Assembly (NCBI GenBank): GCA_030016635.1
Contig: JASEJQ010000018.1
Coordinates: forward strand, 1 to 38,555
Direction of reading: 5' to 3'
Length of the DNA: 38,555 bases
Source: Thermoanaerobacteraceae bacterium
GTDB lineage: Bacteria; Bacillota; Thermoanaerobacteria; Thermoanaerobacterales; UBA4877
Shown here: positions 20,156 to 24,909 of the stretch, one piece after another
Layout: each line of letters opens with the position of its first letter
How positions within the stretch are numbered: position 1 is the stretch's first letter
The notes under the pieces: generated by a model
What the model saw: the letters and a program-made list of their open reading frames with translations, nothing else
Database searches by the model: none
Told to the model about the DNA's origin: nothing
Made by a program: the position numbers and the translations under genes

Positions 20156-21943
20156 ATGGCAAAGGGCTACAAAATCATTGTCCTCGGTGGCGGATTCGGC
20201 GGCCTGTCGGCAGCTCAGAATCTGGATAGATACCTGTGGGGAAAGAACGACGTTGAGATAACCCTCATCAACAGGACCGATAAGCAGGTATACATGACTG
20301 AGCTCCATGAAGTTGCCGGAAACCGTATCCCACCAGAGGGTGTATTATATTCCCTAAAAGAAGCTCTTGAGGGCACAAGAGTAAAACTGGTTGTGGACAG
20401 CGTCACAAAGGTTGATATCCAGAACAAAAAGCTCTTTTCTGAAAAAGGAGAGTACAACTTCGACTACCTGGTTATTGCCAACGGCAGTCAGCCCACATAC
20501 TTTGGCATACCTGGCATGAAGGAAAACGCCATGACGCTCTGGTCCTTAGAGGATGCAGTGAAGATTAGAGACCACGTTCAAGAGGTCTTTGAGGCTGCCT
20601 CTAAGGAGAAGGACCCAGAAAAGAGAAAATCCATGCTCACATTTATTGTAGGCGGCGGTGGATTTACAGGCATCGAGCTGGTAGGTGAATTTATAGAGTG
20701 GTTTGATGAACTGGCAGTAAGATACAACATCCCGCGGAATGAGATAGACCTCAGGGTTGTTGAGGCTCTTCCTACCATTCTTCCCAACTTCAAGGAGGAC
20801 CTCAGGACAAAGGCAGAAAATTATCTTAAATCCCACGGCGTAAAGCTAATGACCAATGCTGCCATTACCAGCGTTGAGTCTGATGGCATTTCATTAAAGA
20901 GCGGTGAGAAAATCTATACCAACACCTTCATATGGACTGGCGGCGTTGAGGCTGAGGGTACAGCAGCAGGTATAGAAGGTATAGAAAAGGGACGCCGCGG
21001 CAGGATAAAGGTTAACAGCTTCATGCAGACAAACGTACCCTATGTGTGTGCTATAGGCGACTGTGCAGAGTATGTTGACGAAAAGGGTGCTCCCATGCCC
21101 GCATTAGTTGAATCTGCTATGCAGTCTGGCGAGTGTGCTGCAAGAAATATCGCTGCAGATATACAGGGTAAAGAAAAGAAGCCGTTGAAGCTTAATCTCC
21201 ACGGCAACATGGTGTCCATAGGCAGCAAGTATACTGTATCTGATGCCGGTGGCATGCATACCTCTGGATTTATAGCTACTGCATTAAAGCACGCAGTAGA
21301 TATGCATTATCTCCTCTTTGCATCCGGTATCGGCATGGTTATACAATACCTATCCCATCAGTTTATGGAAAAGAAGACAAAGGTCGGATTCTGGATACAC
21401 CATGCAAAGGTGCGCACCAGTATGGCCTGGCTTGTACCGCTCAGGGTATTTTTAGGAATCCAGTGGCTTATAGAGGGTGTAAATAAGATAAACGGTGGCT
21501 GGCTTACAACACCCAACCTGATTCAGACAATGATACCAGGTGCTGCAGGAGCAGTTTCTGGAGCATCCCAGGCAGCAGAGGCTGTCACCAGTGCTACACA
21601 GGTTGCCGAAGCGACGGCTGCGTCAGCCCCTGGATGGTATATGTGGTTTATGCAGACATTTATATTCCCTCATTCTCTGCTCTTCCAGTGGGGAATTGCA
21701 CTGGGTGAGGCAATAATAGGCATACTTTTAATACTTGGACTCTTAACAGTTCTTGCCGGACTGGGCTCCATATTTCTGAATATAAACTTCATGCTGTCAG
21801 GCATGGGTGACTGGTGGTATATGATGTCCAGCATCCCGATGCTGGCAGGAGCAGGAAGGTCCTTTGGTCTGGACTATTGGTTTGTGCCATGGATCGCCAA
21901 GGTATTCAAGCGCTGGTACAGGGGAAGGCAAAAGTCGGTATAA
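20156..21943 (+). CDS. NDH-2-like NAD(P)H dehydrogenase with C-terminal DoxX-like membrane domain
   Basis: A 595-aa fusion. Residues about 1-420 are a two-dinucleotide-fold flavoprotein: FAD site GGGFGG at 11-16, NAD site VGGGGFTGIE at about 166-175, and the AIGDCAEY FAD motif at about 300. Residues about 420-590 hold about four hydrophobic segments resembling DoxX or the small subunit of thiosulfate:quinone oxidoreductase, with a low-complexity Ala/Ser stretch between. Such an enzyme passes electrons from NADH to a membrane quinone without pumping protons. The Listeria Ndh2 used for electron export also has a membrane tail. It is divergent from the apbE/quinone run, which should make its electron acceptor. 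GGGGGG precedes the ATG. Confidence 0.92.
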   Translation: MAKGYKIIVLGGGFGGLSAAQNLDRYLWGKNDVEITLINRTDKQVYMTELHEVAGNRIPPEGVLYSLKEALEGTRVKLVVDSVTKVDIQNKKLFSEKGEYNFDYLVIANGSQPTYFGIPGMKENAMTLWSLEDAVKIRDHVQEVFEAASKEKDPEKRKSMLTFIVGGGGFTGIELVGEFIEWFDELAVRYNIPRNEIDLRVVEALPTILPNFKEDLRTKAENYLKSHGVKLMTNAAITSVESDGISLKSGEKIYTNTFIWTGGVEAEGTAAGIEGIEKGRRGRIKVNSFMQTNVPYVCAIGDCAEYVDEKGAPMPALVESAMQSGECAARNIAADIQGKEKKPLKLNLHGNMVSIGSKYTVSDAGGMHTSGFIATALKHAVDMHYLLFASGIGMVIQYLSHQFMEKKTKVGFWIHHAKVRTSMAWLVPLRVFLGIQWLIEGVNKINGGWLTTPNLIQTMIPGAAGAVSGASQAAEAVTSATQVAEATAASAPGWYMWFMQTFIFPHSLLFQWGIALGEAIIGILLILGLLTVLAGLGSIFLNINFMLSGMGDWWYMMSSIPMLAGAGRSFGLDYWFVPWIAKVFKRWYRGRQKSV

Positions 21944-21947
21944 ACAT

Positions 21948-21980
21948 AAAAGACCTCGAAGCTTACCTTCGGGGTCTTTT
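21948..21980. terminator. bidirectional terminator
   Basis: AAAGACCTCGAAG and CTTCGGGGTCTTT pair over 13 bp with one G-T and a 5-nt loop. It serves the dehydrogenase gene and the convergent ANTAR gene, whose stop codon is in the loop. Confidence 0.88.
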
Positions 21981-22541
21981 CTTATACTTCTCTATTATAT
22001 TTTCTGCTACTTCATCCATAGATAGCGAAAAGTCCATAGCCGTCTTTTGTATGTATCTGTGGGCCTCTTCTTCAGTGTAGCGCTCATATTCCATCAGATA
22101 GGCCTTGGCCTTGTTAAGCCGCTTTTGCAGTTCCAGCCTTTTATCCAGCTCCTCAGCCTTACGGGCTGCAGCCTTAAGGTTCCTTTTATATTTCAGGAGG
22201 GAGTTCAAGGTGCCAAGGACAGTAAAAGGAGATACCGGTTTTATAAGGTAGACTATATCATCGGAATGTATGCTGGTTGTCTTATAGGTGCCTGCATTCA
22301 CCATGGTGATGACAGGAGAAATGCCCTCATCCACCAACATGTCGGATACTACCACGCCATTAATTCCGGAGAGGACCTCATCCAGCACAACCGCCTCAGG
22401 CTGGATTGACTTTGAAAGCCTTAAAGCAGACGCACCGTCGCTGGCCGTATAGACCACGTATCCCGATGATTTTAAGGTATCCTTTAACTGATCTTTTAGA
22501 TTAACATCCGAAGCAGCCAGAAGTATCTTCTCCTGTCCCAT
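21963..22541 (-). CDS. response regulator with ANTAR RNA-binding domain
   Basis: A 192-aa antiterminator-type regulator: an N-terminal receiver with the likely phosphorylation site D54 in VVLDEVLSG and the conserved Lys in LIKPVSPF, a coiled linker (about 118-140), and a C-terminal ANTAR domain with LNKAKAYLMEYERYTEEEAHRYIQKTAM. ANTAR domains bind paired small hairpins in leader RNAs and block terminator formation. It follows glnA by 20 bp, a common pairing in Clostridia where it is thought to control nitrogen genes. The glnA leader in this window contains a terminator-like hairpin that may be its target. Confidence 0.92.
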   Translation of the reverse strand: MGQEKILLAASDVNLKDQLKDTLKSSGYVVYTASDGASALRLSKSIQPEAVVLDEVLSGINGVVVSDMLVDEGISPVITMVNAGTYKTTSIHSDDIVYLIKPVSPFTVLGTLNSLLKYKRNLKAAARKAEELDKRLELQKRLNKAKAYLMEYERYTEEEAHRYIQKTAMDFSLSMDEVAENIIEKYKKRPRR

Positions 22542-23896: not shown

Positions 23897-23910
23897 ACAC
23901 AGTCCTCCTA

Positions 23911-23959
23911 TATAATAAAATAAGGTGCCCACGGTCAGTATTACACTGACCAGGACACC
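23911..23959 (-). promoter_or_regulatory. terminator-like hairpin in the glnA leader
   Basis: On the minus strand GGTGTCC and GGGCACC, and inside them GGTCAGT and ACTGACC, form one long interrupted stem around a short loop, followed by TTATTTTATTATA. It lies between the promoter and the ribosome site, so it can stop transcription before glnA. The ANTAR protein encoded next is the natural candidate for relieving it, although a clear pair of ANTAR hexaloops was not seen. Confidence 0.6.
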
Positions 23960-23982
23960 CTTGCCCAAAAAACTATGAATAT

Positions 23983-24012
23983 ATATTAACACATTCGCTG
24001 TTTATCTGTCAA
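23983..24012 (-). promoter_or_regulatory. glnA promoter
   Basis: Perfect -35 TTGACA (24012-24007), then an 18-bp spacer and TAATAT (23988-23983), or 17 bp to TTAATA. The -35 overlaps the last codons of the UGA-containing gene upstream. Confidence 0.75.
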
Positions 24013-24220
24013 TGGCTTTTTTCTGCTTTACAGCCTCATTCAACTCATTTAATAGCTTATTGAGGTCGCATCCATATATTTGAGCTGCCCGCTCAATGCT
24101 CTTATAGAGAGCACCTCCTCAGCCAAAGCAAACTATGCCGTTGTCATAGAATATATCCTCCAGATCTACATCTGGATATTTTTTGAGCACATCAAATATT
24201 ATCATATCCCTGGTAATCAT
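24002..24220 (-). CDS. DUF1858-like redox protein, candidate selenoprotein with CxxU motif
   Basis: Read through one in-frame TGA (24121-24119, codon 34) this is a 72-aa protein of the DUF1858/hybrid-cluster-associated redox disulfide type. Both sides match the family: MIIFDVLKKYPDVDLEDIFYDNG before, and SIERAAQIYGCDLNKLLNELNE after. The usual motif CxGC appears as C31-F-G-U34, with the TGA at the second Cys. A hairpin starting 23 nt after the TGA has a 6-bp stem and a GGGCA loop, matching bacterial SECIS rules. ATG at 24220 has AAGGGG 8 nt upstream and lies 12 bp after trxA, so the two are probably co-transcribed and may exchange electrons. The alternative is a Cys-to-stop mutation or a sequencing error. 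Confidence 0.7.
24080..24096 (-). promoter_or_regulatory. candidate bSECIS hairpin
   Basis: UUGAGC pairs perfectly with GCUCAA around the loop GGGCA. The loop begins 29 nt after the UGA, within the known 16-37 nt range, and has G in its first two positions as SelB binding requires. A competing hairpin, UGCUCU with AGAGCA (24113-24097), lies nearer to the UGA but has no G in its loop. Confidence 0.55.
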
Positions 24221-24232
24221 GTAGTCAACCCC

Positions 24233-24553
24233 TTAGATATATGCTTTTACTTTATTAAGCACAGCCTGTTTGGGAGTAACACCCACTATTTTATCCACCA
24301 TCTGGCCATTCTTGAATATGCCCATGGTAGGGATGCTCATAATCCTGTAGGCCGATGCAGTGGCTGGGTTCTCATCCACATTCAGCTTTGCAACTGTAAA
24401 GTCCTCATTCTCTGCAGCGATTTCGTCCAGTACCGGTGCCATCATCCTGCACGGCCCGCACCATGCCGCCCAGAAGTCCACAAGGACAACCTTATTTGAT
24501 TTTAATACTTTATCCTCAAAGTCTCTATCAGTTACTACTACTGGTTTACCCAT
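24233..24553 (-). CDS. trxA: thioredoxin
   Basis: A 106-aa cytosolic thioredoxin with the active site W31-CGPC at residues 32-35, the buried Asp in VDFWA, and the cis-Pro in SIPTMGIF. AAAGGAGG precedes the ATG. It has its own promoter just upstream and is followed 12 bp later by the CxxU protein, a possible partner. Confidence 0.96.
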   Translation of the reverse strand: MGKPVVVTDRDFEDKVLKSNKVVLVDFWAAWCGPCRMMAPVLDEIAAENEDFTVAKLNVDENPATASAYRIMSIPTMGIFKNGQMVDKIVGVTPKQAVLNKVKAYI

Positions 24554-24601
24554 AAATGTACCTCCTTTTACTATCCCCTCGTACAGGGGGGGACTATATA
24601 A

Positions 24602-24631
24602 ATAGTATCACATTATCTTTGATTTTGTCAA
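24602..24631 (-). promoter_or_regulatory. trxA promoter
   Basis: TTGACA (24631-24626), an 18-bp spacer and TACTAT (24607-24602). A small TCCCC/GGGGA hairpin would lie near the 5' end of the mRNA. Confidence 0.65.
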
Positions 24632-24639
24632 TACGTACT

Positions 24640-24909
24640 TTATCTGGTAAATTTAATCACAGAGTCAATCAGTTTTTTTACGTCATCTAACATTACTTTA
24701 TCCTTATCGTCCTTTATTATGCATTCCGCAGCATGCTCCTGAAGCAAAAAATATCCAATTTTTTCTATAGAAGATTTTACTGCAGCGATCTGCAGAAGTA
24801 TGTCATCGCAGCTTTTCCCGTCTTCTATCATCTTCTCTATACCGCCAATATGCCCCTGGACTGTATGCAGCCTGTTGATTATATCTTTTTTTACCTCTTC
24901 TGTAATCAT
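24640..24909 (-). CDS. csoR: CsoR/RcnR-family metal-sensing repressor
   Basis: An 89-aa all-helical repressor. C34, H59 and C63 match the Cys-His-Cys copper site of CsoR, where they are C36, H61 and C65 in Mycobacterium. RLHTVQGHIGGIEKMIEDG is the typical first helix. GGGAGGT precedes the ATG. CsoR proteins leave DNA when copper(I) binds; relatives sense persulfide or aldehydes, so the inducer is not certain. It lies just upstream of trxA, so a redox or persulfide link is possible. No copper ATPase is seen in the window. Confidence 0.9.
   Translation of the reverse strand: MITEEVKKDIINRLHTVQGHIGGIEKMIEDGKSCDDILLQIAAVKSSIEKIGYFLLQEHAAECIIKDDKDKVMLDDVKKLIDSVIKFTR

Follow-up and report, generated by a model that had tools for sequence, protein, structure and literature searches.

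The DNA analysed here, called the window below, is the whole 38,555-nucleotide stretch of contig JASEJQ010000018.1 from a Thermoanaerobacteraceae bacterium (GCA_030016635.1), whose genome comprises 2.35 Mb in 114 contigs and is 100% complete. The part of interest carries a small candidate selenoprotein gene preceded by genes for a thioredoxin and a CsoR-type repressor, with the following features.

24640..24909, minus strand: CsoR-family (Trns_repr_metal) repressor with Cys34-His59-Cys63 (PF02583, E 2.9e-23)
24602..24631, minus strand: promoter-like TTGACA-18-TACTAT ahead of the thioredoxin and candidate selenoprotein genes (consensus scan)
24575..24591, minus strand: G/C-tract inverted repeat CCCCCC-TGTACGA-GGGG, a candidate CsoR-family operator (recurs in G023 and G020)
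24233..24553, minus strand: thioredoxin with WCGPC (PF00085, E 9e-32; TIGR01068 above cut-off)
24002..24220, minus strand: candidate selenoprotein gene with a DUF1858/TIGR03980 domain (read-through translation, PF08984 and TIGR03980 matches, UGA-bearing homologues)
24119..24121, minus strand: in-frame UGA, the proposed selenocysteine (Sec) codon, at the second position of a CxxU motif (Cys31-Phe-Gly-Sec34), opposite a Cys in the alignment with 2K53 and 2K5E
24080..24096, minus strand: putative bSECIS hairpin with a 6-bp stem (TTGAGC/GCTCAA) and a 5-nt loop (GGGCA) (fold, covariation, absence from Cys homologues)

An initial annotation of this DNA had proposed a 73-codon frame at 24002-24220, without naming the strand, and this frame does exist on the minus strand, running from an ATG at 24220 to a TAA at 24004-24002. 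It holds exactly one in-frame TGA, at 24121-24119 (codon 34), and the good ribosome site ascribed to it can be recognized as AAGGGG, a plausible site ahead of the ATG. As had also been stated of ORF callers, the gene is missed: it is absent from the table-11 ORF listing of the window. Read through, the frame gives a product of 72 residues with Sec34 (MITRDMIIFDVLKKYPDVDLEDIFYDNGIVCFGUGGALYKSIERAAQIYGCDLNKLLNELNEAVKQKKAIDR), which matches PF08984 (40.6 bits against a cut-off of 32.2, E 2.7e-10) and TIGR03980 (53.2 bits against 44.95, E 2.2e-14) over nearly its full length, so that the similarity spans both sides of the UGA. The NCBIfam matches of the product include no selenoprotein-specific model, and Rfam at gathering thresholds gave no match anywhere in the window. 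An AlphaFold model of the product (pLDDT 61, pTM 0.42) was too weak for use, and a Foldseek search with this weak model returned nothing at E 0.001.

DUF1858 with CxxU is a tabled selenoprotein family, with WP_012065717.1 as an example (PMC9312934, PMC13188914), and the first of these papers credits the DUF1858 selenoprotein to Zhang and Gladyshev (2008) and Peng et al. (2016). As the family is already published, the gene in the window is a further member and not a new family; likened by description, it and WP_012065717.1 have in common PF08984, CxxU and one Sec per protein. The passages on the domain in the two papers give no function for the DUF1858 selenoprotein, nor do they mention the CFGUGGALY(K/M)SIERAA subgroup described below, its thioredoxin and CsoR neighbours or the decayed sister copy. 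Among solved structures, 2K53, which represents the TIGR03980 redox disulfide domain, aligns over its whole length (E 3.9e-12) and places its CxxC on Cys31 and Sec34; the CxxC of 2K5E falls on the same columns. Thus, the earlier assignment of the TGA to the second Cys of a CxxC is borne out, and the protein in the window differs from these solved Cys forms in having Sec for the second Cys. The product was also described as hybrid-cluster-associated. This description agrees with the name of the TIGR03980 family, but the genome contains no hybrid cluster protein (TIGR01703, no match at E 0.001), which rules such a protein out as a partner; the TIGR03980 model itself does not require the association. 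The N-terminal domain of the ScdA/RIC proteins, which repair iron-sulfur clusters (9R7J, PF04405), shows a weak whole-length similarity that includes the C-GG motif (E 5.8e-12 by profile, 0.003 by single sequence). However, the protein in the window is without the di-iron C-terminal domain and scores below the ScdA_N and RIC cut-offs.

By gene content, the cell is able to read UGA as Sec. The genes selD (391 bits), selA (587 bits), selB (418 bits) and tRNA-Sec (74 bits) are consecutive on contig C33 of the genome. With selA, selB, selC and selD all present, the objection that the machinery might be lacking, which the initial annotation had foreseen, falls away. ARAGORN identifies the tRNA as a tRNA-SeC whose anticodon is TCA (UCA in the RNA), and the selD frame carries one in-frame TGA of its own. 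Reading of the UGA as tryptophan was set aside, because this column is Cys in homologues and the genome has a tRNA-Sec whose anticodon is UCA.

The UGA is widely kept. Within the order, three genomes proved to have TGA copies (G000, G020 and G003), a contig scan added four more in MAGs of Clostridia or Bacillota (L029-L032), and in a sample of 399 genomes from the phylum at least 25 genomes had a TGA copy among the matches listed, beside many Cys copies; all of these searches are samples with one genome per species. Aligned with DUF1858/TIGR03980 members, homologues have either Cys or UGA at the same column. In all, 20 UGA genes were compared, 19 further loci keeping TGA at the same codon as in the window. 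Homologues with identities of about 40-62% retain the UGA, and relatives that do so come from several families. This conservation in relatives argues that the TGA is no lone sequencing error. Two subgroups can be recognized, one with CFGUGGALY(K/M)SIERAA (the window, L023 and L029-L032) and the other with C(V/L/I)GUGG(A/S)LFE(S/T)(I/V)EQGA (e.g. L062-L066, L068-L070 and L075). At one locus in G003 (L025:1498-1689, minus strand), YYAU stands in place of CFGU, so that the UGA and hairpin are kept and the partner Cys is lost; a mono-selenol form may therefore exist.

The same comparison bears on whether the UGA is an ordinary stop, in which case just a 33-residue peptide would be made and the downstream similarity would be a relic. 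Sec insertion is usually inefficient, and the purine-rich context beside the UGA could allow termination. Nevertheless, most of the columns conserved among the homologues fall after the UGA, this part is kept across families, and in the closest homologues the differences in this part lie mostly at third positions (3, 3 and 10 at the three codon positions against L023). Furthermore, selB is present in all 25 genomes of the phylum sample with a UGA copy among the matches listed, compared with 266 of 399 overall (Fisher 2.7e-5, an optimistic figure because the homologues are related and kinship inflates significance). We consider an ordinary stop very improbable. The UGA of this small gene is very probably read as selenocysteine, and the Cys-to-Sec reading made from the DNA alone gains support from both the Sec machinery and the retention of the TGA across families.

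A bacterial selenoprotein gene is expected to carry a bSECIS element, and the hairpin already proposed (6-bp stem, GGGCA loop 29 nt after the UGA) was found at 24096-24080. Published limits for such elements are a stem of 4-16 bp, a loop of 3-9 nt that begins 16-37 nt after the UGA and has a G in its first two bases, and a minimum free energy of at most -7.5 (PMC13188914). The hairpin in the window lies inside the stem, loop, G and distance limits, and is borderline by the energy rule, as alone it reaches -7.0 kcal/mol, slightly short of the threshold. The predicted minimum-energy fold of 76 nt includes it, although this fold by itself shows no unusual stability (z -1.3). Comparison across homologues is decisive for the hairpin, in our reading, and single-sequence folding is not. 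All 20 UGA copies have a hairpin whose loop contains GG and begins 29-30 nt past the UGA, and 97% of the stem cells pair across these copies, as against 25-41% when the stem is slid by 1-3 columns. The covariation score was 0.308 for the 20 UGA sequences and 0.172 in shuffles, with none of 500 shuffles as high, although these figures overstate significance since the compared homologues are related. Among 29 Cys homologues, which are more distant and so an imperfect control, none has all six pairs and the mean is 1.5 of 6; when the same proteins were encoded with random synonymous codons, all six pairs arose in 0.04-3% of draws. With all 20 UGA homologues sharing the hairpin at the same place with covariation, and none of the 29 Cys homologues having the six-pair stem, it exceeds chance. 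One pair of alignment columns, 33 and 47, offers a clear example of how RNA structure may constrain protein sequence: 10 copies have UA here, nine have CG and a single one has AU, with none unpaired. The base in column 33 occupies the wobble position of an Ile or Val codon and that in column 47 the second position of a Gln, Arg or Leu codon, so that pairing in the stem appears to dictate which of these three residues is used.

A natural control for these ideas is provided by G023, a sister genus and the sole other genome of the window's family in the set, in which selB gave no match at E 1e-60. Its copy of the gene (L024:1437-1730, minus strand) stands between the thioredoxin gene and glnA, as in the window, and is decayed: the Sec codon is TAA, a T run contains a frameshift, the loop GGGCA has become CAGCA, and there is further damage. 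Around it, csoR (93% identical) and the thioredoxin gene (88%) are intact. This is the outcome that would be expected from loss of Sec decoding, and in effect the copy is a natural knock-out. It also shows that comparable decay occurs nearby, which favours the rival view that the gene in the window is itself dead or misread, that is, a Cys-type DUF1858 gene with its Cys codon mutated to TGA or altered by sequencing error. That explanation is extremely improbable, since many species have TGA at the same codon with the protein and the hairpin conserved beyond it, in the genomes searched the CFGxGGALY(K/M)SIERAA subgroup has no allele that encodes Cys, and the covariation of the hairpin speaks against it. 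We rejected both the pseudogene and the plain-stop readings because of the conservation, the covariation and the joint occurrence with selB.

The thioredoxin gene ends, with its stop, at 24233, 12 nt ahead of the ATG of the candidate selenoprotein gene, and the two are probably on one transcript. The initial annotation had the protein working with this thioredoxin; the adjacency is as described, and the partnership is plausible, but adjacency of thioredoxin to the UGA gene is kept only within the window's own family. In G020, the UGA gene directly follows a CsoR-family repressor with no thioredoxin gene between them, and this repressor is the most conserved neighbour of the selenoprotein gene. 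The C34-H59-C63 ligand spacing of the repressor in the window is the same in G020 and kept in orthologues, and C-x24-H-x3-C is the spacing of copper-sensing CsoR. The TTGACA/TACTAT promoter arrangement is also readable at L024. The G/C-tract repeat sits between the -10 box and the ribosome site of the thioredoxin gene, overlapping the expected start site, and has counterparts at the corresponding place in G023 (ACCCCCTATACAAGGGG) and G020 (CCCCCTATATATAAGGGGGG); none was found at the examined csoR loci that have neither the DUF1858 gene nor its relic. The combination of repressor, repeat and DUF1858 gene is found in two families, the second without thioredoxin. The pattern itself is weak, with 2.4 chance matches expected across the whole window, and the weight therefore rests on position and on recurrence in three loci. 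We read this repeat as a candidate CsoR-family operator.

Two arrangements at related loci may be recorded here. Across loci L105 and L106-L113, csoR and a DUF3006-like small gene are directly adjacent in genomes related to G020, and in G020 itself they are separated by the repeat and the UGA gene, which looks like insertion or loss of the unit. In addition, other genomes of the order have a second csoR paralogue that adjoins a thioredoxin gene (L114, L116, L118 and L119), so that the csoR-thioredoxin pairing is more general than the locus in the window.

Taken together, we put the probability at roughly 0.88 that this is a real selenoprotein with a CxxU pair, probably reduced by thioredoxin and controlled by CsoR, and most likely serving in thiol or metal stress. 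In the mechanism that we propose, SelB with Sec-tRNA(UCA) would bind the hairpin 29 nt past the UGA and the ribosome would insert Sec34, and the result would be a small DUF1858 protein that, from comparison, should have a Cys31-x-x-Sec34 redox pair. We infer a thiol-selenol redox protein, in which Cys and Sec would cycle between a selenylsulfide and the thiol/selenol form, with the thioredoxin encoded 12 nt upstream as the probable reductant. The neighbouring CsoR-family repressor would probably govern the thioredoxin-selenoprotein promoter at the CCCC/GGGG operator, and such control would most likely imply a role in thiol or metal stress and not one with the separately promoted glnA.

The nature of that stress can be read in more than one way. 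The selenoprotein could serve mainly for metal, with Cys-x-x-Sec binding or shuttling a soft metal such as Cu(I), control by a copper-type CsoR, and thioredoxin doing the reducing. The spacing of the repressor's ligands and the presence in two families of the repressor along with the repeat and the DUF1858 gene, together with the csoR loci that have neither gene, relic nor repeat, are consistent with this; but members of the CsoR family that have similar ligands can respond to other signals, most UGA copies (in Clostridia, L029-L032 and L062-L086) have no CsoR gene in the flanks examined, and L025 is without the first Cys. We regard metal handling as unlikely to be the main function. It is possible, if doubtful, that in this bacterial order the selenoprotein, with thioredoxin, is the effector of a CsoR-sensor regulon, induced by copper, another soft-metal stress or thiol stress and buffering or reducing it; if true, this would be a direct link between a selenoprotein and a metal-sensing repressor. 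A literature search for CsoR with a selenoprotein found no report of such a pairing among the papers listed. What is new here is the context, in which a CsoR-type repressor is followed by a promoter that a CCCC/GGGG operator-like repeat overlaps, and then by a thioredoxin and a selenoprotein. An uncharacterised published family thereby gains its first concrete genetic context, and hence a regulation that can be tested, and the annotation is corrected for what is very probably a working selenoprotein gene overlooked by ordinary ORF calling.

The downstream gene, glnA, is probably transcribed from a promoter of its own. A promoter-like TTGACA-18-TAATAT lies at the end of the selenoprotein gene (24012-23983, minus strand), and the same hexamers are readable in G023. 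With this site, and with different neighbours at the other scanned UGA loci, glnA is unlikely to be an operon partner. The leader before glnA (23897-24003, minus strand) begins with this promoter-like site and contains a long terminator-like hairpin (z -4.6), which is conserved in G023 (z -2.5), and the gene after glnA codes for an ANTAR-domain response regulator (ORF 21963-22541), an arrangement that suggests ANTAR antitermination of glnA. Finally, 20156-21943 on the plus strand encodes a fusion of a pyridine-nucleotide disulfide oxidoreductase with a C-terminal part that is DoxX-like, and this product weakly resembles the Nterm_to_SelD and sulfide-quinone-reductase-like models.
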